Source: [Eubacterium] cellulosolvens LD2006 (GTDB lineage Bacteria > Bacillota > Clostridia > Lachnospirales > Lachnospiraceae). Taken from it: 64,000 bases of DNA. Of this stretch, positions 1,080 through 56,375 are shown piece after piece. Under the pieces are notes generated by a model. It ran no database searches. It was not told where the DNA came from and was given only the letters and a program-made list of their open reading frames with translations. Location: positions 250,244 to 314,243 of the forward strand of contig NZ_KK211309.1 of NCBI RefSeq assembly GCF_000621585.1, given 5' to 3'. The translations under genes were made by a program, and so were the position numbers. The first letter of the stretch is position 1. Every line of letters starts with the position of its first letter.

Positions 1080-1601
1080 ATGAAATTAACGACTAGAGGC
1101 AGATATGGGCTTCGGGCGCTCATAGATCTGGCGGAAAATCAGGATGGCGGCGCGGTCTCGACACAGAGCATCGCCCAGCGGCAGGATATCTCGGAGAGCT
1201 ATCTGGAGCAGCTGATCCGTATGCTGAAGAAGAGCGGGCTTGTGACAAGCGTGCGCGGAGCCGGCGGCGGATACCGTCTGTCCCGCCCGGCTTCGGAGAT
1301 CTCTGTGGGAGACGTCCTCCGTTCTCTGGAGGGAAGCCTTGAGGCTGTGGAGTGCCCGGCCATCGTGGGAGATGACTGTTCGAGCGCGGATGAGTGTGTG
1401 ACAAAAATCGTGTGGAAGAGGATTAACGACGGAATCGCGCAGGCGGTGGATTCGATCATGATCTCCGAGCTTGTGGATGAAAGCATGAGACTAAAGACCG
1501 TCAAGAAAGACCGCACGGTGAAAGAGCGCTCGGAGGCGGCAATCAACGCGCGGATTATTCGGAATGAGCAGAACAAGAGCGTTCGGGAGGCACAGGATTG
1601 A
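1080..1601 (+). CDS. Rrf2-family transcriptional regulator, IscR-like
   Basis: A winged-helix DNA-binding protein of 173 residues from the ATG at 1080, which is preceded by AGGAGAAATAG; an in-frame ATG at 1062 has no good ribosome binding site. The N-terminus MKLTTRGRYGLRALIDLA is the Rrf2 signature. Three cysteines (C-x7-C-x5-C, starting at ECPAIVGDDC) lie where IscR binds an Fe-S cluster, so it probably senses Fe-S or cysteine status. Its stop codon overlaps the start of a cysteine desulfurase, as in isc and cymR operons. The C-terminal 40 residues are charged and likely disordered. Whether it represses its own operon is inferred from the arrangement. Confidence 0.88.
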   Translation: MKLTTRGRYGLRALIDLAENQDGGAVSTQSIAQRQDISESYLEQLIRMLKKSGLVTSVRGAGGGYRLSRPASEISVGDVLRSLEGSLEAVECPAIVGDDCSSADECVTKIVWKRINDGIAQAVDSIMISELVDESMRLKTVKKDRTVKERSEAAINARIIRNEQNKSVREAQD

Positions 1602-21731: not shown

Positions 21732-21756
21732 AAACGCGTAAAGTGAATAATGAGCA

Positions 21757-21842
21757 GCGGGGAGCCGGATGTATCCGGCTGAGAGGAGGATGTAAGTTCT
21801 CGACCCATTGACCTGATTTGGATCATGCCAACGTAGGGAGTG
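21757..21842 (+). ncRNA. TPP riboswitch (thi box) 2
   Basis: Thi-box segments in order: GCGGGGAGCC, GGCTGAGAGG, CGACCCATTGACCTGATTTG, GGATCATGCCAACGTAGGGAG. It controls the thiazole-salvage operon that begins at 22222. The hairpin at 21865-21895 is the likely expression platform. Confidence 0.95.
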
Positions 21843-21864
21843 ACTGTTAAGCAAGAAGAAATAC

Positions 21865-46078: not shown

Positions 46079-46456
46079 ATGCAGGAAATCTATGAGAGCG
46101 CGGAAATGATACTGGGTTATGTGGTGGAATATTCGACGCTGATTCTGGAGATGTTTGGAATCTTCGTACTCGTCTGGAACGCGCTGAGATGTTTCTTTAC
46201 ATGGATTCGCAAAGAGGATGACGCCATCCGTCTGAAACTTGCGGAGGGCATCGCTCTTGCCCTCGAGTTCAAGCTGGGCGGAGAGGTTCTCCGTACGGTC
46301 GTCGTGCGTGAGTGGTCTGAGCTTGGCATTCTCGGTGCGATCATCGCGCTTCGGGCGGCGCTGACATTCCTGATCCACTGGGAGATTAAGAATGAGGAGA
46401 AAGCGCTCAACAAGAAAGGCGGCCCGGATCGAACGGAAGAAAGCGGAGCGGAATGA
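46079..46456 (+). CDS. DUF1622 family membrane protein
   Basis: A 125-residue protein with three predicted helices: ILGYVVEYSTLILEMFGIFVLVW, a central amphipathic stretch, and LGILGAIIALRAALTFLIHW. The segment RLKLAEGIALALEFKLGGEVLRTVVVREW is the conserved part of DUF1622. The function is not known. AAACGGAGGA is upstream of the ATG. It stands alone between the FNT gene and the nitrogenase-like cluster. Confidence 0.8.
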   Translation: MQEIYESAEMILGYVVEYSTLILEMFGIFVLVWNALRCFFTWIRKEDDAIRLKLAEGIALALEFKLGGEVLRTVVVREWSELGILGAIIALRAALTFLIHWEIKNEEKALNKKGGPDRTEESGAE

Positions 46457-46504
46457 CGGCGTTTCCGCCGGGGACGGATATTTTAAAGAACAGAACATAA
46501 ACAA

Positions 46505-46533
46505 TTGATATTCGGCCGTCAGGATGTCATAAT
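46505..46533 (+). promoter_or_regulatory. Candidate promoter of the nitrogenase-like operon leader
   Basis: TTGATA (46505-46510), 17 bp, CATAAT (46528-46533). It would start a transcript just before the structured leader at 46543. Confidence 0.55.
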
Positions 46534-46542
46534 GAGTGTTAA

Positions 46543-46613
46543 TGATCCGACCGGAAAGATCAGTATGGCCGTTCGTAAAACCATCGGCCCGATACTACTC
46601 TGACCGGAAAGAG
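46543..46613 (+). ncRNA. Candidate structured leader RNA before nifH-like gene
   Basis: Three hairpins follow each other. The first is TGATC-CGACCGGAAA-GATCA (46543-46562). The second is AGTAT/ATACT with GGCCG/CGGCC (46562-46596). The third is CTCT-GACCGGAA-AGAG (46598-46613). The first and third share the loop GACCGGAAA on different stems. A terminator follows 90 nt later (46705-46738), the layout of a riboswitch or protein-binding leader. It matches no riboswitch consensus that I know. Confidence 0.4.
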
Positions 46614-46704
46614 AAGATATGAGTTATACGTACATCCGGATACAACAAAACCGTTCTGCGACGACGCAGATCGTCTGCCCGCAGTTTATGTATAAGGATA
46701 TGTC

Positions 46705-46738
46705 TCCACAGGATCAATCGGATTCTGTGGATTTTTTT
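46705..46738 (+). terminator. Intrinsic terminator upstream of the nifH-like gene
   Basis: TCCACAG (46705-46711) and CTGTGGA (46725-46731), with inner ATC/GAT, followed by T7. The T-tract is the 5' edge of repeat copy F1. It may terminate the leader before the nitrogenase-like genes. Confidence 0.85.
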
Positions 46739-46907
46739 GTGTTATGAAAATCCCTCCGGAATTTCCATAACACAAAACGCTCCGCGGGATGCGCAGCTCG
46801 CAGATGGGAAGATCGCTTCGCGATTCTGCTCGCGCGCCAAAGTCCTGCGGCGCTCCCCTCAGGAGTGAGGGGCTGGGGGAGCCGAAGTTCGCTTGCGGAC
46901 TTTGTTC
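46735..46907 (+). repeat. Intergenic structured repeat, copy F1 (full length)
   Basis: H1 is TTTTGTGTTATG (46735-46746) with CATAACACAAAA (46766-46777). CGCTCCGCGGGATGCGCAGC follows, then H2 GATCGC-TTC-GCGATT (46811-46825), GCGCGCC, the stem CCCCTCA-GGAG-TGAGGGG (46855-46872) and H3 AGTTCGC-TT-GCGGACT (46886-46901), then TTGTTCT. It defines the family consensus together with copy C. Confidence 0.9.
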
Positions 46908-46964
46908 TGTTATGAAAATCCCTCCGGAATTTCCATAACACAAAACGCTCCGCGGGATGCGCAG
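46908..46964 (+). repeat. Intergenic repeat, copy F2 (5' third, tandem)
   Basis: A 57-bp perfect copy of 46740-46796 (H1 and the CGCTCCGCGGGATGCGCAG block) begins exactly where F1 ends, then breaks off 24 bp before the nifH-like start codon. Confidence 0.9.
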
Positions 46965-46988
46965 GCAATATTTTTTGAGAGGTGAACC

Positions 46989-47753
46989 ATGTACAGATTT
47001 GCGATATACGGAAAAGGCGGCATCGGAAAATCAACGACCTGCGCGTCGCTTTCCTGTGCCTTTGCCGAAATGGGATATAAGGTTCTTCAGGTGGGCTGCG
47101 ACCCGAAGGCGGATTCGACGCTTTATCTTCACAGCGGAGAAAGGATCGGCTCCATTCTGGAGATCCTGAAAAAGAAGAAGGACGATGCGGAGCTGGAGGA
47201 TCTCGTCCACAGCGGCTACAAGGGGATCTACTGCGCGGAATGCGGAGGTCCGACGCCGGGGCTCGGCTGTGCGGGACGCGGCATCGGCGCGGCCTTTGAG
47301 GCTCTCGAAGAGCACTGCGCTTTCGATCTTCTGGAGCCGGACATCGTGCTCTACGACGTGCTCGGAGATGTCGTCTGCGGAGGTTTTGCCATGCCGATCC
47401 GTGAGGGCTATGCGGATCAGGTCTACATCGTGACCTCCGGTGAGAACATGGCGATCTACGCGGCAGCCAACATCGCCGTCGCCGTCGAGAATTTCCGGGA
47501 GCGGGGTTACGCGACCCTTGGGGGTGTGATTCTGAACCGGCGCAATGTGCCGGATGAGAGGGAAAAGGTCGAGACTCTCTGCCGGGATATTCACACCGAG
47601 ATCGCAGCGGATCTTCCGAGGGACGCGTGCGTCTCCGCTGCGGAAGTGGAGAAACGTCCGGTGTTGGAGGCCTATCCGGACAGTGCCTATGCGAAGGCGA
47701 TCCGTTCTCTGGCCGCGCGCATGATCAGAAACGGAGTGGATCATCATGAGTGA
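46989..47753 (+). CDS. Nitrogenase iron protein-like ATPase (NifH-like)
   Basis: A 254-residue homologue of NifH/BchL/CfbC. Walker A is YGKGGIGKST (residues 7-16), switch I-like VGCDPKADST, and the 4Fe-4S ligands are Cys94 in GLGCAGRG and Cys130 in VLGDVVCGGFAMP, both at the classic spacing. It would deliver electrons with ATP hydrolysis to the D/K-like partners that follow. An extra CAEC pair at residues 82-85 is atypical. GAGAGGTGAACC precedes the ATG. It overlaps the next gene by 8 bp. Confidence 0.92.
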   Translation: MYRFAIYGKGGIGKSTTCASLSCAFAEMGYKVLQVGCDPKADSTLYLHSGERIGSILEILKKKKDDAELEDLVHSGYKGIYCAECGGPTPGLGCAGRGIGAAFEALEEHCAFDLLEPDIVLYDVLGDVVCGGFAMPIREGYADQVYIVTSGENMAIYAAANIAVAVENFRERGYATLGGVILNRRNVPDEREKVETLCRDIHTEIAADLPRDACVSAAEVEKRPVLEAYPDSAYAKAIRSLAARMIRNGVDHHE

Positions 47754-49041
47754 GTACAGGCTGATCCGGGACATGACGTATGAGAAAAAAACAGACGACA
47801 GCCTCGCCTATTCCTCCCCCTGCAGAGGGATGTGGAATATTGTGCATATCGGAACCCAGGTTCCCCATAGCCATCAGATCTTTGTCTGCCCCACGAGCTG
47901 TCTGAGGGGTGTCGTCCTGACCACGGCCGAGATGGGGGCGATGGACAGACTCTCCACGATCGCGGTCGGTGAAGATAACATCCTCGAGGGAGACATGGAG
48001 GAGACATTGCAGAAGGGCGTGGAAAAGGTGATTGCGACCCTTCCGGAAAAGCCCCGGATGATCCTGATTTTCATCAGCTGTATCCATCATTTTCTGGCGG
48101 CGAATTATCAGAGAGTCTACCGCATTCTCCGGAAGAAATATCCGGACATCGATTTTGTCGACGCCTACATGGATCCGATTATGCGGAAAAAGACGCCTCC
48201 GATTCCCTGTCTGATCCGGCAGATCTACCGGGTGATGGAAAACGGAGAGAAAAACAAGCGGCAGGTCAATTATATCGGCAACTGGTTTTCCTCTCCCGCG
48301 CATAACGACATGACGGTTCATCTGCGAAACTGCGGCATCGACGTGCGGGATCTCGCGGCGGAAACGGATTACGACCGCTTCCGCCAGATGCAGAAGAGCA
48401 GTGTAAATCTGACGTTTCACAACTATGCGGCAAGGGCGGGAAAGGACCTGGAGATCCGGCTTGGACAGAAATGGATCAGGGTTCGTCCGTCCTTTGATTA
48501 CGATGAAATCGACGCGGACATGGCGGCGGTCTGTGAAGAACTCTCCATTCCACTGCCGGAGGCGGCGGAGATCCGTCGTTTGAGGGAGCAGGTGGAGGCG
48601 AAGGCTGCGGAGCTGAAAAGAATTCTGGGGGATACAATGATCGCCGTGGACTATACGGCGGTGGATCAGCCCCTGGGGCTCTGTCTGTTTCTGAACCGCC
48701 TCGGGTTCCGTCTGGATTCCTGTTTTATCGAATCCCTGACGGAACTGGAAGAGGTTTTCCTCCGGCTTCAGCGGGCAGAGCCGGAGTTGAAGATTTACCT
48801 TGCCGATGACTTTCCGATGCGGAGAATGCGACGGGGACACGAGGGCGAAATCCTCGCGATCGGACAGAAGGCTGCCTATTACAAGGACACGACCCGTTTT
48901 GTGAATATCATCAACGGGGCGGATCTCTACGGCTACCGCGGAATTCTTCATCTGCTGGATCTGATGGAGGATGCCTGCCTTCACGAGAAGGATACGGAAG
49001 TATTGATTCAGCAGAAAGGTCTGGGGTGCAGAGCAAAATGA
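47746..49041 (+). CDS. Nitrogenase component 1-like protein (NifD/E-like)
   Basis: A 431-residue member of the oxidoreductase/nitrogenase component 1 family. Cysteines at 26 (SPCRGM), 48/52 (CPTSC) and 112 (SCIHH) can serve as P-cluster-type Fe-S ligands. The segment NLTFHNYAARAGKDLE aligns with the NifD stretch NLVQCYRSMNYIAR that holds FeMo-co ligand Cys275, and the Cys is missing. Near the end GADLYGYRGILH corresponds to the His442 region without the His. It therefore should not bind standard FeMo-co. It sits with the H- and K-like genes; the reaction is unknown. Confidence 0.85.
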   Translation: MSEYRLIRDMTYEKKTDDSLAYSSPCRGMWNIVHIGTQVPHSHQIFVCPTSCLRGVVLTTAEMGAMDRLSTIAVGEDNILEGDMEETLQKGVEKVIATLPEKPRMILIFISCIHHFLAANYQRVYRILRKKYPDIDFVDAYMDPIMRKKTPPIPCLIRQIYRVMENGEKNKRQVNYIGNWFSSPAHNDMTVHLRNCGIDVRDLAAETDYDRFRQMQKSSVNLTFHNYAARAGKDLEIRLGQKWIRVRPSFDYDEIDADMAAVCEELSIPLPEAAEIRRLREQVEAKAAELKRILGDTMIAVDYTAVDQPLGLCLFLNRLGFRLDSCFIESLTELEEVFLRLQRAEPELKIYLADDFPMRRMRRGHEGEILAIGQKAAYYKDTTRFVNIINGADLYGYRGILHLLDLMEDACLHEKDTEVLIQQKGLGCRAK

Positions 49042-50201
49042 GAGACTGGCATACACACGTTTTTACCTCGACATACACCGCGGATGTCTCCGGTGTATGT
49101 TCGGTGATGTACGAGCTCGGAGGGATGACGATTCTTCATGATCCGAGCGGCTGCAATTCCACCTATACGACCCACGATGAGCCCCGCTGGTACGACACGG
49201 ACTCGCTCATGTACGTGTCCGGTCTGGACGAGATGAGCGCGATCTACGGCGACGATTCGGTGATTATCGCGGATGCCATCCGGGCGGCCGGGGTGATGAA
49301 GCCGAAGTTCATCACCCTCTGCGGGGCATCGATCCCCCACATTATCGCCTTTGATTACAAGGGGGTGGCGCATCTGATCGAGAAGGAGACGGGGATTCCT
49401 GTCCTTCCGGTGCCGACCGACGGCCTGAAGTCCTATGTCTCCGGTGTCGGCCTTGCCACAAGGGAGTGGATCAAAAGATTCGCCGACCGCGGCGCGGAGA
49501 AGAAGTACGGAAGTGTGAATCTGCTCGGCGTGACGCCCATCGATTTTTCCCGGCAGGAAAACGTCGACGATCTGAAAGCGTTCTTCTCGACAAGCGGTCG
49601 GGAGGTCAACGGTTGCTTCGCCATGGGAGATACCTTCGAGAATCTTCGCAACATCTGCGCTGCTTCGGTCAATGTCGTGGCTTCCTCCGCGGGAAGGGTG
49701 CCGGCGAGATTCCTCTTCGGAAAGGAAAAAATACCTTCGGTGGAGGGACTTCCCATAGGACCCGGCATGCGGGAGCGGCTGCTTGCCTGCATCAGAGAGG
49801 CGGAACTTACCGGCAAAAATCTCCGGGCATACGAGGATCTTCCGGAGGAGAGTGAAGTGCTGGTTATCGGCGAAGAGATTTTCGCGAAATCCCTGGCCAC
49901 GGAGATCAATTACCTCTACCGGACAGAAGGAAGCGGCCGGAGAGCCCGGGCGCTCTGGCCGGATGTCAATGAGGGCTTCGACGAGGAAGAGTTGCTGGAA
50001 GCGATCGACCGTTCCAAAGTTGTGATTGCAGATCCGCTCTTCCGCGTGGCCGTAAGGAACAGGGAGACAGCCTTTGTGGATTTTCCGCACGAGGGCTATT
50101 CCGGAAGAATCTACCGCGAACGGATTCCGCGGTTCCTGTCCGCGGATTTCCCGATCGGGTCGTGGATGGAACATGTATCACGCATAGCCGGGAGGAACTG
50201 A
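49038..50201 (+). CDS. Nitrogenase component 1-like protein (NifK/N-like)
   Basis: A 387-residue partner subunit. The chosen ATG at 49038 overlaps the previous stop (ATGA); a GTG at 49026 is possible. Three cysteines in P-cluster-like positions are GVCSVMYELGG, HDPSGCNSTYTTHDEPRW and TLCGASIPH. It is shorter than NifK (about 520) and nearer to reductases of tetrapyrrole or cofactor pathways. It likely forms a D2K2-type complex with the preceding product, served by the NifH-like ATPase. The substrate is not readable. Confidence 0.83.
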   Translation: MRDWHTHVFTSTYTADVSGVCSVMYELGGMTILHDPSGCNSTYTTHDEPRWYDTDSLMYVSGLDEMSAIYGDDSVIIADAIRAAGVMKPKFITLCGASIPHIIAFDYKGVAHLIEKETGIPVLPVPTDGLKSYVSGVGLATREWIKRFADRGAEKKYGSVNLLGVTPIDFSRQENVDDLKAFFSTSGREVNGCFAMGDTFENLRNICAASVNVVASSAGRVPARFLFGKEKIPSVEGLPIGPGMRERLLACIREAELTGKNLRAYEDLPEESEVLVIGEEIFAKSLATEINYLYRTEGSGRRARALWPDVNEGFDEEELLEAIDRSKVVIADPLFRVAVRNRETAFVDFPHEGYSGRIYRERIPRFLSADFPIGSWMEHVSRIAGRN

Positions 50202-50287
50202 CCGGACGTACGGGAGGCGCACCGGCAGGAGATCTGGCTACGCCGAGGCTTTCTGATGCGTGCTATTCAGGCAAGCAGGCAAGTTAT

Positions 50288-50324
50288 TTGGTCGAGTTAT
50301 TTAAGAACAGCTATACTAGTATAG
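50288..50324 (+). promoter_or_regulatory. Promoter with perfect palindrome before the chelate importer
   Basis: TTGGTC (50288-50293), 18 bp, TATACT (50312-50317). The -10 box lies inside the perfect 14-bp palindrome CTATACTAGTATAG (50311-50324), a likely repressor site. The rest of the 244-bp gap has no gene. Confidence 0.6.
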
Positions 50325-50445
50325 AGGTATTATGAGAGTTGTGATACGGAAGATCCCGCACATACGGGAATCGCTTGAAGAGAAGGACGGATGAGAGCGG
50401 TTCTTCGGACAGAGGACATAGCGTACAAAAGAGAGGGGAAGGAAA

Positions 50446-51744
50446 ATGAGAGGAAAAATCCTGGGAACAGAACGAAAAACGATGAAGAGACGGGGCATCT
50501 GTAAGAAGATCGCCACGGGCATTCTTGCCGCGGCGTTGCTTGCCGGATGCGGCGGAAGCAAAGATGCCTCGATTTCCGGAAGAGTGGCATCCGCCTCCGG
50601 CAAAATGACTTCGGAATCAGCGGTGTCCGGATCTGTGACTTCAGAGTCTGTGTATCGGACGGTGGAATCCTGCTCATCGGAAGTACCCGGGGAAGCGTCA
50701 GAGAAGAAAGCGTCTGAGCGCGTACAGATCACCGATCACATGGACCGGACGGTCACGGTTCCGACCGACCCGCAGAACGTGGTGATCCTGGACATTCTTC
50801 CCCTGCCGTCGGTGCTGACGATTTACCTCGGCTCCGCGAAGACGATCAAAGCCATGGAGCCGGCGTCCATGAACGCGGCAAAGAACAGTGTCCTCTGTGA
50901 TCTCTTCCCGGAAGTTCAGGACGTGAGCACGGATATCATGAGCAACGAGGACGTGAACATCGAGTCGCTGATCGCGTTGAATCCGGATGTCGTTTTTTTC
51001 AACGCGGGAAACAGGGAGCTCTGCGCGAAACTCGAGAACGCCGGGCTCATCTGTGTGGGTGTCTCGCCGGTCAAATGGAAGTATGACTGCATCCGCACCT
51101 ACAACGAGTGGATCGCCCTTCTCGATCAAATCTATCCGGACCGGGCGTCGGGAAACGAGAAGACCGTCGATGCGTATGCGAACGAGATCTATGACGAGAT
51201 TCAGGAAAAAACCGGAACCCTGAAGGAGGAGGATAAACAAAAAGTTCTCTTCCTCTTTCAATACGACGAGAACACGATGATCACCTCCGGCTCCAGTTTC
51301 TTCGGCCAATGGTGGTGCGACGCCGTCGGGGCGGAAAACGCGGCGGAAGAGGTTGCGGCGGACAATTCCAACGCGAAGATCACGATGGAACAGGTCTACA
51401 AATGGGATCCGGATGTGATCATCATCACAAACTTCACGGGGACTCAGCCGGAAGATCTTTATAACAACGCGATCGGCGATGACGACTGGTCCGGCGTAAA
51501 AGCCGTAAAAGAAAAAAGAGTATATAAGATGCCGATGGGTTCCTACCGCTCCTACACGCCGGGCGTCGACACGCCGATGACCCTGCAGTGGCTCGCGCAG
51601 GCGGTCTATCCGGATCTTTTTTCGGACATTGATGTGAAAGAAAACGTAAAGGACTATTACAGGACAATCTACGGCGTGGAACTGACGGATGAGCAGGTGA
51701 ATCGCATGTACACGCCGAACCGTGACGCAGGGAAGATGAACTGA
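50446..51744 (+). CDS. ABC transporter substrate-binding lipoprotein, iron-chelate/corrinoid type
   Basis: A 432-residue receptor of the FecB/BtuF (helical-backbone) class. The signal sequence ends in the lipobox LLAGC (Cys about 35), followed by a long Ser/Glu-rich linker to about residue 88. The binding domain starts VQITDHMDRTVTVPTDPQNVVIL and includes IESLIALNPDVVFF and WDPDVIIITNF. GGGAAGGAAA precedes the ATG; 50482 is an alternative start. Family members bind siderophores, haem, cobamides or metal chelates. Its position after nitrogenase-like genes hints at a metal or tetrapyrrole used by them. Confidence 0.85.
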   Translation: MRGKILGTERKTMKRRGICKKIATGILAAALLAGCGGSKDASISGRVASASGKMTSESAVSGSVTSESVYRTVESCSSEVPGEASEKKASERVQITDHMDRTVTVPTDPQNVVILDILPLPSVLTIYLGSAKTIKAMEPASMNAAKNSVLCDLFPEVQDVSTDIMSNEDVNIESLIALNPDVVFFNAGNRELCAKLENAGLICVGVSPVKWKYDCIRTYNEWIALLDQIYPDRASGNEKTVDAYANEIYDEIQEKTGTLKEEDKQKVLFLFQYDENTMITSGSSFFGQWWCDAVGAENAAEEVAADNSNAKITMEQVYKWDPDVIIITNFTGTQPEDLYNNAIGDDDWSGVKAVKEKRVYKMPMGSYRSYTPGVDTPMTLQWLAQAVYPDLFSDIDVKENVKDYYRTIYGVELTDEQVNRMYTPNRDAGKMN

Positions 51745-51939
51745 AGAAACAAAAGACGCATCTGTTTCCCGGGCTGCGCCTGCGTTTTTTGGAATTGCAC
51801 TCCCGGGTAAGCGTTCTGCGAATGAGGCTGGCTATTTTCGGCCGTTTATGTGAGAGGACGCAGGCGGAAACAGAGGACATACCGGCACTGTCGATGGAAA
51901 AAAACACTGGACAGAAGGAGCGGAGAACAGGAGACGGAC

Positions 51940-52944
51940 ATGAAGCATACATTTCATCTGTGGATGATCATCATGGGAATCATACTCTTCGGGACGGCGC
52001 TGGCTGCGCTCTGTGCCGGTCCGTTTCATGTGCCCGCGGGAGACGTGCTTTCCATTCTCTCGGGGAAGGGAAGCGCCATTCCAAACGCGGAGACGACGAT
52101 TCGCATGGTTCGGCTTCCGAGAATCGTACTCACTGTTCTCGCGGGAGCCGGACTCTCGGCGGCCGGCGCTGCCTTTCAGAGCCTCTTCGCGAATCCGCTG
52201 GCGACGCCGGATACCCTGGGCACCGCCAACGGCGCGAGTTTCGGAGCCGCCTTCGGCATTCTTCTCGGCCTTCCGTCCTTCGGCGTGCAGCTGCTCGCTC
52301 TCGGCATGGGGGTGCTCGCCGTCCTTCTGGTTCTCGCCCTTACCCGGGCGGTGCACGGCGTCCGCAATACATCGCTGATCATGGTAATTCTGGCCGGCAT
52401 GGTGATCTCCTCCATGTTTTCCGCTCTGGTTTCTCTGGTGAAATATGTGGCGGATCCCAACGATGTTCTTCCGGTGATCACCTTCTGGCTGATGGGAAGT
52501 TTTTCCGGGACAACGGTAAAATCGCTGACGATCGGCATCCCTCTGATCGTGACCGGGCTGGTGATTCTTTTTCTGATGCGCTACCGCATGGACGTCCTCT
52601 CTCTCTCCGAGGATGAGGCGAAATCCCTGGGAATCAATCTTCCGCTGACCCGCGGACTGATTATTTTTGCCGCCTCGGCCATCACGGCGAGCGTGGTCGC
52701 GCTCTGTGGAGTGATCGGCTGGGTGGGGCTTCTGATTCCCCATATCGTGCGCATGCTTCTCGGAAACAGCAACGCGTATGTTGTACCGGGAAGTATGCTT
52801 TCAGGGGCGATTTTTATGCTGCTGACAGATACCGCGGCTCGCTGTGCGACTGCCGCGGAGATACCGGTGTCAATTCTCACGGCAGTGATCGGCGCTCCGG
52901 TATTCATTCTTCTTCTTCGGAAAACAGGAGGAATACAGGCATGA
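51940..52944 (+). CDS. ABC transporter permease, FecCD/BtuC type
   Basis: A 334-residue protein from the ATG at 51940 with CAGGAGACGG upstream; about ten helices. RLPRIVLTVLAGAGLSAAGAAFQSLFANPLATPDTLG is the hallmark of the FecCD family, and GVIGWVGLLIPHIVRMLLG the coupling region. It serves with the binding protein before and the ATPase after it, which overlaps by 4 bp. The 195-bp gap from the binding-protein gene contains no strong terminator or promoter. Confidence 0.93.
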   Translation: MKHTFHLWMIIMGIILFGTALAALCAGPFHVPAGDVLSILSGKGSAIPNAETTIRMVRLPRIVLTVLAGAGLSAAGAAFQSLFANPLATPDTLGTANGASFGAAFGILLGLPSFGVQLLALGMGVLAVLLVLALTRAVHGVRNTSLIMVILAGMVISSMFSALVSLVKYVADPNDVLPVITFWLMGSFSGTTVKSLTIGIPLIVTGLVILFLMRYRMDVLSLSEDEAKSLGINLPLTRGLIIFAASAITASVVALCGVIGWVGLLIPHIVRMLLGNSNAYVVPGSMLSGAIFMLLTDTAARCATAAEIPVSILTAVIGAPVFILLLRKTGGIQA

Positions 52945-53744
52945 ATGTAACCCTCAGAAACGGCTGTTTCTCGTATGCGAAGGATCAGCCGGTGTTGGAA
53001 AATATCAGTTTTGACGTGGATCAGGGCGAAGTGCTCGCGGTGCTCGGGCCGAACGGCGTCGGTAAGACCACCCTGCTCAAGTGTCTGCTCGGCTTCCTTG
53101 GCTGGGAGAAAGGGGAGGCCGTGTTCATGGGAAAAAGACAGGAGAACTTTCGCGGCTCTTCGTTCTGGAAAGAAGTGGCCTATGTTCCTCAGGCGAGGAG
53201 ACAGACCTTTCCGTATTCTGTCGAGGAGACGGTGCTTCTGGGAAGAACGCCGTATCTGGGCATCTTTGAGAAACCCCGCAGGAAGGACCTTGAGATCGCG
53301 GAAAAGGCGATGCGGATGACGGGGGTCGAAGGCTTACGGCACAGAAACTGCGCGGAGCTGAGCGGAGGAGAACTGCAGCTCGTTCTGATTGCGCGCGCCC
53401 TCTGCGCAGAGCCGTCGATTCTGATCATGGATGAGCCGGAGACAGGACTGGATTTTCGCAATCAGCTGATCATTCTGAATCTGATCGAGCGGCTCAGCCA
53501 CGAGGAGAAGCTGACCGTTGTCTTTAATACCCATTATCCGGAGCACGCGCTGGAGGTCGCGGACCGCACGCTGCTTCTTGACAACAGCGGAAAGGCGCTG
53601 TTCGGAAAAACGGAGGAGATCCTGACGACGGAGAACATGGAGGCGGTATTCTCGGTGAAGATTCGTATTGTCACACAGGAAGAGAACGGGAAGGTTCACG
53701 CGTCGATCCTGCCGCTCTCGCTGATCGGGGAGGAGAAGAGATGA
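52941..53744 (+). CDS. ABC transporter ATP-binding protein, FecE/BtuD type
   Basis: A 267-residue ATPase: Walker A GPNGVGKTT, Q-loop YVPQARRQTF, signature LSGGELQLVLIARAL, Walker B ILIMDEPETGLD and H-loop NTHYPEHA. It starts within the permease stop (ATGA) and in turn its stop overlaps HydF (ATGA). That double coupling ties the importer physically to hydrogenase maturation genes. Confidence 0.93.
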   Translation: MNVTLRNGCFSYAKDQPVLENISFDVDQGEVLAVLGPNGVGKTTLLKCLLGFLGWEKGEAVFMGKRQENFRGSSFWKEVAYVPQARRQTFPYSVEETVLLGRTPYLGIFEKPRRKDLEIAEKAMRMTGVEGLRHRNCAELSGGELQLVLIARALCAEPSILIMDEPETGLDFRNQLIILNLIERLSHEEKLTVVFNTHYPEHALEVADRTLLLDNSGKALFGKTEEILTTENMEAVFSVKIRIVTQEENGKVHASILPLSLIGEEKR

Positions 53745-54946
53745 GTGAACTCTACAACAAAGCATCGAGCGCGAACCGCACACACATCGGTCTGTTCGGA
53801 AGAATGAACGCCGGCAAGTCGACACTGCTGAACGCCCTGACCGACCAGACGGTTTCCATTGTATCGAGCAGAGCAGGGACGACGACGGATGTCGTCCGAA
53901 AACCGATGGAGATCCACGGGATCGGCGCATGTACGTTTCTGGATACGGCCGGCATCGACGACAGCGGAGAGATAGGAGAACTTCGGGTGAAGGCGGCCGG
54001 GAAAGCGGCGGCACAGACGGATATCGCAGTGATGGTTTTTTACGATCGGGATGATTCTCTGGAGAGGCAGTGGACAGAGGAATTCCGGAAAAGAAAGGTG
54101 CCTGTCGTGGGCGTCCTCGGCCATGCGGATGAGCTGGGAAGAGAGGCGGCCTGGGAGAGGGCGGCAAAGCTTGAGAAAATACTCGGCATCCCGGTCATTC
54201 CCTTCGCGGACAAGTGGGAGGGCTGCGCAGAGGAAATCCGGAAGGCACTCGTGGAAGCGGCCGCGGGAAGAGGCGAGAGACGGACAATCACGGGAAATCT
54301 GGTGAAGGCCGGAGACAGCGTGATTCTTGTCATGCCGCAGGATCCCCAGGCGCCGGAGGGCAGGCTGATTCAGCCGGAGGTACAGACGATCCGGGAACTT
54401 CTCGATAAGCACTGCATCGTGCACTGCACGGCAGCGGAGGAGCTCCCTGCCCTGCTTGCGTCCCTGAAGGAAGAACCGGAACTTGTCATCACGGATTCGC
54501 AGATCTTCCGTGAGGTGCACGATCTGCTGCCGGCGGGCGTGAAGCTTACATCTTTTTCGATTCTCTTCGCAGGGTTCAAGGGCGACATGCGATACTTCGC
54601 GGACAGCGCGAAAAAAATAGAGGAGCTCACGGAGGACTCCCGGGTGCTGATCGCGGAGTGTTGTACCCACGCCCCGATGGAGGAGGATATCGGAAGAGTC
54701 AAGATCCCCCGGCTGCTCCGCAAGGCTGTCGGAGAAAAGGTGACCGTCGACGTTAAGGCCGGAACGGATTTTCCGGAAGATGCAGGGAAATATGATCTGA
54801 TCATTCAGTGCGGAAGCTGTATGTTCAACCGCCGCTATGTTATATCCAGAGTGGAACAGGCAAAGAGACAGGGAGTTCCCATGACCAATTACGGAATTGC
54901 CATCGCGCAGCTGACAGGGATTCTCGATGAGGTGACACTGCCATGA
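53741..54946 (+). CDS. hydF: [FeFe]-hydrogenase H-cluster maturation GTPase HydF
   Basis: HydF is the scaffold GTPase on which the 2Fe subcluster is finished before transfer to HydA. The 401 residues hold an N-terminal GTPase (GRMNAGKST G1, DTAGIDD G3), a dimerisation domain, and a C-terminal Fe-S domain with the conserved ECCTHAPMEEDIGRVKIPRLL and CGSCMFNRR cysteines. It overlaps the ABC ATPase and HydE genes by 4 bp each. HydG and HydA are not in the window. Confidence 0.95.
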   Translation: MSELYNKASSANRTHIGLFGRMNAGKSTLLNALTDQTVSIVSSRAGTTTDVVRKPMEIHGIGACTFLDTAGIDDSGEIGELRVKAAGKAAAQTDIAVMVFYDRDDSLERQWTEEFRKRKVPVVGVLGHADELGREAAWERAAKLEKILGIPVIPFADKWEGCAEEIRKALVEAAAGRGERRTITGNLVKAGDSVILVMPQDPQAPEGRLIQPEVQTIRELLDKHCIVHCTAAEELPALLASLKEEPELVITDSQIFREVHDLLPAGVKLTSFSILFAGFKGDMRYFADSAKKIEELTEDSRVLIAECCTHAPMEEDIGRVKIPRLLRKAVGEKVTVDVKAGTDFPEDAGKYDLIIQCGSCMFNRRYVISRVEQAKRQGVPMTNYGIAIAQLTGILDEVTLP

Positions 54947-56073
54947 TTACGCCGGAGAACTGCAGAATCGGGGAATACATCCGCGAGTTCCGTGCACAGA
55001 CGCTGCCGGTGTCGGAGGAGCAGAAGAGGAGGATCGACTGTCTCTATGAGACGGGGATGCTGGAGAGGAAAGACTTTGCCGGACTGATCGAAGAGAGGGA
55101 GGAGACCTCCGCCGCATACATCGCGGCAAAAGCGCGGGAGAGGCAGAGGGAGCATTTCGGGACGAAGGTCTATCTTCGCGGACTGATTGAGTTTTCCAAT
55201 ATCTGTGCCTCCAACTGTCTGTACTGCGGCATTCGAAGAGATAACGCGAAGGCTGTCCGCTACCGGCTCGGGGAAGAGGCGATCCTGGACTGCTGCAGGG
55301 CCGGGTACGGGTTCGGTTTTCGCACCTTTGTACTTCAGAGCGGAGAAGACCCATGGTGGACCGATGAGAGAATCTGTTCCCTGATTCAAAGGATCCGTGG
55401 TGAGTTTCCGGACTGCGCGATCACATTGTCGATCGGGGAAAAGACAAAAGAAAGTTACCGCAGTTACTATGAGGCCGGCGCGGATCGCTATCTGCTCCGG
55501 CATGAGACAGCCTCGCCGGAGCTTTACAGAAGGCTGCATCCGCCGGCACAGACCCTCCAAGACAGGATTCGCTGTCTCCATGATCTGAAAGAAATCGGTT
55601 ATCAGATCGGTGCCGGGATGATGGTGGAAGCTCCCGGACAGACGACGGAGGATCTCGTCCGGGATCTTTTCTTTCTGAAAGAACTGCAGCCGGATATGAT
55701 CGGGATCGGACCCTTTATTCCCCACAGCGACACGCCGTTTGGGAATGAGAAGGCGGGGAGCGTGGACCTCACGCTATTCCTGCTGTCTGTTCTCCGGTTG
55801 ATGTTTCCGAAGGTTCTGCTGCCGGCGACAACGGCCCTCGGAACCGTTGATCCGAGGGGAAGAGAGAAGGGAATCCTTGCCGGAGCAAACGTGATTATGC
55901 CGAATCTCTCTCCGGGAGATGTGCGGGGGAAATACCTGCTCTACGACAACAAGATCTGTACCGGCGATGATCCGGAAAAGTGCAGCCGCTGCATGGAACT
56001 CCGCATGAAATCGATTGGGTATGCGATCTCTGAGGAGCGGGGCGATGCGCCGGGATGGAGCAGGAGAGTGTAA
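54943..56073 (+). CDS. hydE: [FeFe]-hydrogenase maturation radical SAM protein HydE
   Basis: Radical SAM enzyme acting on a (Cys)Fe(CO)2(CN) synthon in H-cluster assembly; 376 residues. The 4Fe-4S motif is SNICASNCLYCGIRRDN (C-x3-C-x2-C), followed by LQSGEDPWWT, HETASPELYRRLHP and the barrel end DIGPF-like MIGIGPFIPHSDTPF. A C-terminal CSRCMELR pair might hold the second cluster seen in some HydE. It is coupled to hydF by an ATGA overlap. Confidence 0.94.
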   Translation: MITPENCRIGEYIREFRAQTLPVSEEQKRRIDCLYETGMLERKDFAGLIEEREETSAAYIAAKARERQREHFGTKVYLRGLIEFSNICASNCLYCGIRRDNAKAVRYRLGEEAILDCCRAGYGFGFRTFVLQSGEDPWWTDERICSLIQRIRGEFPDCAITLSIGEKTKESYRSYYEAGADRYLLRHETASPELYRRLHPPAQTLQDRIRCLHDLKEIGYQIGAGMMVEAPGQTTEDLVRDLFFLKELQPDMIGIGPFIPHSDTPFGNEKAGSVDLTLFLLSVLRLMFPKVLLPATTALGTVDPRGREKGILAGANVIMPNLSPGDVRGKYLLYDNKICTGDDPEKCSRCMELRMKSIGYAISEERGDAPGWSRRV

Positions 56074-56120
56074 AGCGGAAAAAAGAAAGGAGAAGATCCG
56101 CTCTTTTACGGGTGGATCAC

Positions 56121-56375
56121 GTGAAAAGGATGGATACGAGACTTGCAATGATCGCGATTGTCGTAGAGGATACGGAGTGCACGGCGGCAATGAACGCGGT
56201 GCTTCATGAGTACAGCAGTTACATCATCGGCAGAATGGGCATTCCCTACCGGGAGAAAAACGTCTCGCTCATCTCCGTGGCCATTGACGCGCCGAATGAT
56301 GTGATCAGCGCACTCACCGGAAAACTCGGGAATATCAGGGGAATGAATGTGAAGACGGCGTACTCTAAAGTATAA
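56121..56375 (+). CDS. TM1266-family regulator of the iron-only hydrogenase system
   Basis: A small ferredoxin-fold (ACT-like) protein of about 84 residues: RLAMIAIVVEDTECTAAMNAVLHEYSSYIIGRMGIPYREKNVSLISVAIDAPNDVISALTGKLGNI. TM1266 proteins are NikR-C/ACT-like putative regulators found with HydE, HydF and HydG. The start is unclear: GTG 56121 behind GGGTGG, ATG 56130, or an upstream ATG at 56055 inside hydE. It ends the long plus-strand cluster, and the next gene faces it. Confidence 0.82.
   Translation: MKRMDTRLAMIAIVVEDTECTAAMNAVLHEYSSYIIGRMGIPYREKNVSLISVAIDAPNDVISALTGKLGNIRGMNVKTAYSKV

Follow-up and report, generated by a model that had tools for sequence, protein, structure and literature searches.

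The nitrogenase-like operon in the window (the whole 64,000-nucleotide stretch of DNA analysed here) is preceded by a promoter, a structured segment and a terminator, raising the question of whether this segment is a regulatory leader RNA and, if so, of what kind. The initial annotation had proposed a riboswitch-like leader, in which two hairpins with the same loop flank a third and bind a ligand or protein. The features of the locus are:

46474–46533, plus strand: promoter and conserved AT-rich upstream stretch (consensus scan; comparison with the sister species G007)
46546–46559, plus strand: repeat copy 1, TCCGACCGGAAAGA, identical in G007
46563–46595, plus strand: apical extension of hairpin P1, the third hairpin of the initial annotation (folding; G007 sequence)
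46599–46612, plus strand: repeat copy 2, TCTGACCGGAAAGA; the G007 counterpart is TCTAACCGGAAAGA
46615–46704, plus strand: P2, a predicted second hairpin (folds; alignment)
46705–46738, plus strand: intrinsic terminator, 11 pairs and a T-tract; G007 counterpart at L008 1720–1740
46740–46964, plus strand: dispersed repeat between terminator and nifH, not part of the leader
46989–47753, plus strand: nifH-like gene (NifH-like ATPase)
47746–49041 and 49026–50201, plus strand: two nitrogenase component-1-like genes

Further downstream lie genes for a periplasmic-binding protein and a FecCD-type permease, followed by HydF and HydE. The run from 46989 to 56375 thus comprises the nitrogenase-like genes, an iron-siderophore/B12-type ABC transporter, HydF, HydE and a small TM1266-like protein, whose resemblance to TM1266-type regulators was judged by eye. 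Elsewhere in the family, nifH is preceded by a comparable small-protein gene or by a HydE-like sequence. The association of the nitrogenase-like enzyme with maturation proteins of [FeFe]-hydrogenase may be a link not yet explored; a literature search on it returned nothing on point. Upstream, the consensus scan bore out the promoter candidate of the initial annotation, TTGATA-17-CATAAT with a TG ahead of the −10, at 46505–46533 (−35 TTGATA at 46505, −10 CATAAT ending at 46533); this is a prediction by consensus match only. Its upstream neighbor is a DUF1622 gene. The strong terminator proposed at the far end was likewise recovered, as an 11-pair hairpin at 46705–46731 followed by TTTTTTT, and an intrinsic terminator between promoter and first gene is a feature of attenuators.

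Turning to the structure of the leader, GACCGGAAA does occur twice (46549–46557 and 46602–46610), within a 14-nt repeat whose copies are 93% identical. However, the twin hairpins that would display it as a loop have essentially no predicted probability as a folded state: alone they reach −2.0 and −2.6 kcal/mol, with pair probabilities of 0 to 0.001, and the first gives the minimum-energy structure only when folding is limited to the initial ~25 nt. Instead, the two copies are predicted to pair with each other to form P1, in which CCGG 46551–46554 and AGA 46557–46559 of copy 1 provide the 5′ strand and TCT 46599–46601 and CCGG 46604–46607 of copy 2 the 3′ strand, the CCGG:CCGG pairing having a probability of 0.985–0.997 in the predicted ensemble. 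As folded within the 5′ 85 nt, P1 reads CCGG-AA-AGA-[apical part]-UCU-GA-CCGG; its extended form is predicted at −21.6 kcal/mol, versus −16.1 kcal/mol for the twin-hairpin fold including the middle hairpin. That middle hairpin is present (GTAT 46563–46566 with ATAC 46592–46595; GGCCG 46567–46571 with CGGCC 46585–46589), but as an extension of the P1 tip rather than as a separate element. Most likely, then, the predicted folds make the "twin loops" the two sides of one hairpin and the twin-loop structure a misreading; the small hairpins could be no more than short-lived co-transcriptional folding intermediates. The repeated loop is in any case weak evidence taken alone, because identical 9-mer loops on stems within 100 nt arose at least once in 22% of simulations, about one in five single 64-kb strands generated by a first-order Markov model. 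The weight of the repeat comes from the conservation of both copies in the sister species.

Among 16 genus genomes, the orthologous operon and the leader are found only in the genome under study and in G007; the second gene of the operon shows 83% identity between the two, and operon homologs in four other genus genomes reach at most 34% identity. In G007, the same promoter (locus L008; 48 of 58 positions identical across the promoter region) is followed by GATCCGACCGGAAAGAGCGATCTAACCGGAAAGAG. The repeats are 18 nt apart there, versus 53 in the window, and the 35-nt difference falls exactly at the P1 tip, where the extra segment of the window is itself a hairpin. G007 is predicted to form CCGG-AA-AGA-[GCGA]-UCU-AA-CCGG, a GCGA tetraloop replacing the apical extension; it is because the same P1 forms without the extra 35 nt that we assign the third hairpin to the P1 tip. 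In both species P1 is predicted to be followed by P2, whose basal strands are conserved and whose middle has diverged, and then by the terminator, which keeps its pairing in G007 through one A-U to G-C and one G-U to G-C change. Four blocks—the promoter, copy 1, copy 2 and the pre-terminator/terminator segment—are 76–85% identical, whereas 4-fold degenerate sites of neighboring genes differ at 0.39–0.61. The corresponding binomial P-values (1e-6 to 3e-3) are optimistic, because the blocks were picked after the alignment had been viewed. The promoter, the P1 and P2 strands and the terminator are nevertheless conserved above neutral expectation, and constraint on this stretch is likely. A joint fold of the two sequences on a hand-anchored alignment gave three two-sided and three one-sided pair changes with no broken pairs, two of the three two-sided changes being unreliable because they lie in the poorly aligned middle; this fold, of two sequences only, retained P2 only partly.

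Beyond this pair, conservation of the element upstream of orthologous nifH-like genes, which the initial annotation had staked its proposal on, broke off. A search with the leader DNA through the genome itself, the genus and 397 family genomes yielded only G007 as a true relative; a match in G675 lies inside a coding region and was taken as chance. Eighteen nifH-like loci in other genera of the family, and RUG028, have leaders without the element, and an order-level search returned only distant homologs, whose leaders lie outside the comparison. RUG028, a more distant relative, has a promoter and then an 11-pair terminator directly upstream of nifH (L093 4097–4229), in unrelated sequence. Of the 16 genus genomes, 10 contain twin ACCGGAAA patterns, and the two of five own-genome matches that were read were not nif-like leaders. 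The pattern CCGGAAAGA..TCTRACCGG gave mostly scattered matches in the 397 family genomes, several of them recognizably coding. In the own genome it matched the terminator that follows a cobW-type gene (L115, about 1497–1530, minus strand), which has the CCGG-AA-AGA..UCU-GA-CCGG core found in P1, with a GCAA tetraloop; the likeness is probably a coincidence. Rfam, at gathering and permissive thresholds, gave no match to the leader, and only sub-threshold, spurious microRNA/sRNA matches within 46400–47000; the sole match in the window at gathering score is a TPP riboswitch at 21748–21856 (plus strand). A search for attenuated or riboswitch-controlled nifH in clostridia found nothing relevant among the top literature matches. 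Separately, five loci (L073, L075, L076, L078 and L079) carry inverted TTAG..CTAA-type repeats near the promoter, upstream of nifH-like genes. We take these to resemble DtxR-family operators, by which analogy they would suggest metal-responsive control in those relatives.

Behind the terminator lies a dispersed repeat, the 5′ part of which recurs at 46911–46964 and which G007 carries at the same place. It has 44 matches in the genome and is roughly 170–220 nt long (46740–46964 in the window; L132–L157). Of 24 copies examined, 17 start at an intrinsic terminator, versus 1.6 expected from shuffled flanks; the 17 may be an undercount, since the test disallowed long loops. Where flanks were read, several of the adjoining terminators lie at gene ends. 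The repeat has the look of a small mobile or spreading element with terminator T-tracts as its target, and the 46705 terminator may be the ordinary end of a small transcript.

Taking these observations together, we tentatively favor, at somewhat less than even probability, a lineage-specific, attenuator-like 5′ leader of the nifH-like operon. Transcription would start near 46540, most transcripts would end at the 46705–46738 terminator, and read-through, with expression of the operon, would be permitted by some factor, most likely a protein that binds RNA at P1/P2. This model is supported by the order and P1 core shared with G007 despite the length difference at the P1 tip, by block identity set against the divergence of 4-fold sites, by the pair-preserving changes in the terminator, and by the promoter and strong terminator ahead of nifH in RUG028. 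Against it stand the restriction to two carrier species and the dispersed repeat, and it is mainly because this repeat usually follows ordinary terminators that our preference is held no higher. The predicted folds place P1, P2 and the terminator side by side, and no convincing antiterminator fold mutually exclusive with the terminator was seen among them. The attenuator for a metal- or substrate-controlled system suggested by the initial annotation stays plausible in its first part, because promoter, structured leader, terminator and operon do follow one another in this order, and do so in the sister species too; its riboswitch reading is not supported. In a more specific version, which we consider improbable, the purine internal loop AA/RA of P1, located between CCGG:CCGG and AGA:UCU, would be the site for an uncharacterized RNA-binding antiterminator or for CsrA acting on termination. 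A leader peptide was considered and rejected: both species have an ORF after copy 2 (42 and 21 codons, with a weak Shine-Dalgarno-like GGAAAGAG ahead), but the peptides differ and contain no regulatory codon run, as judged by eye.

Several other explanations must be weighed against the attenuator-like leader. Promoter and terminator could delimit an independent RNA of ~195 nt, or the terminator could end transcription from DUF1622, with the operon served by another promoter. In favor of this are the habit of the dispersed repeat of starting at terminators, several of them at gene ends, and a terminator scan that found no strong terminator between the DUF1622 gene and the promoter; however, the consensus scan reported no promoter-like site from the terminator to nifH in the window, and within the genus the promoter and leader are confined to the two members with the operon, so we regard this as possible but rather unlikely. 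The conserved TCYRACCGGAAAGA repeats could alternatively act at the DNA level, as operators a short way downstream of the promoter, with the RNA fold incidental. They form a direct repeat with a palindromic center, CCGG, and the conserved block runs upstream through the promoter; but a change of spacing from 18 to 53 bp, a shift of 35 bp or about 3.3 helical turns, counts against this, the additional 35 nt fold into a hairpin right at the P1 tip, which is simplest at the RNA level, and no regulon of twin sites was seen in the genome, making operators unlikely. A small-molecule riboswitch sensing a metal or substrate, as first proposed, would account for a structured leader and terminator upstream of a metalloenzyme operon. 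Yet the would-be binding loops pair together, no Rfam family matches, the conserved core is small (two short strands plus those of P2 and the terminator) with the P2 middle diverging freely between sister species, and the element is absent from the other nifH-like leaders read, including those of other genera; we therefore judge a riboswitch very unlikely.

Two known regulators could also act here. CsrA, binding two GGA sites and controlling translation or termination, bridges sites 10–63 nt apart (PMC7652899), a range that includes both leader spacings. Its gene occurs in both leader-bearing species and in only four of the 16 genus genomes (G000, E 1.1e-21; G007, E 1.0e-21; G011; G012), and copy 2 lies just upstream of an ATG in both species. 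However, this co-occurrence is not independent because the two species are close relatives (the distribution of csrA in the genus is patchy), and the A-N-GGA in an unpaired hairpin loop that marks CsrA targets is missing, GGA being predicted as paired in P1 (about 0.99) and C replacing the A of the core in ACCGGA; CsrA control is accordingly quite improbable. An ANTAR target with two hexaloop hairpins is less credible still, and indeed barely so. In ANTAR targets, stems of at least 3 bp close hexaloops with A1 and G4, joined by a short linker (5–12 nt in E. faecalis, with 14 nt impaired), and in Pelobacter nitrogenase genes are preceded by predicted targets of this kind (PMC3369931). The leader hexamer ACCGGA carries both A1 and G4, and the genome encodes one ANTAR protein (G000:C3:183164–183307, E 1.8e-17), adjoining glutamine synthetase. 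But no base pair closes the ACCGGA hexamers, G.A or A.A adjoining the loop; the 35-nt difference violates the short-linker rule in the window, at least about 33 nt separating the two originally proposed hairpins; and the second hairpin of a target should overlap the terminator, from which copy 2 lies about 100 nt away. A hexaloop scan of the window, G007 and RUG028 leaders gave the repeat hexamers as unclosed and other matches at about the background rate. At the ANTAR locus itself (L094 5144–7059, on G000:C3), the glutamine synthetase gene precedes the ANTAR-domain protein gene, and the stretch upstream of the former showed no terminator-like site.

If the attenuator-like leader is real, it offers an entry point for asking when these clostridia make their nitrogenase-like enzyme, and if the antiterminator site in P1 also holds, this would be a not-yet-described regulatory RNA controlling a nitrogenase-like operon. 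More generally, what the eye takes for a recurring loop motif may be the paired strands of a single hairpin, and here a single sister-species comparison altered the structural model.

Among known systems, the Guanidine-II (mini-ykkC) riboswitch bears a superficial likeness, with two short hairpins bearing identical loops, but the leader lacks the ACGR loops typical of that class, and has no Rfam match. ANTAR target RNAs (PMC3369931) share two loop-like hexamer copies with A1/G4, an encoded ANTAR protein and nitrogenase genes among predicted targets; they differ in their closing pair, shorter spacing and terminator overlap. CsrA target leaders (PMC7652899) share two GGA motifs at compatible distances (18 or 53 nt) and a csrA gene in both species, but not the predicted paired state of GGA or the loss of the preceding consensus A. 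Attenuation leaders as a general class differ in that the present leader, a candidate attenuator, is known from two genomes only; they share with it the succession of promoter, structured leader, intrinsic terminator and operon, which is conserved in the sister species.
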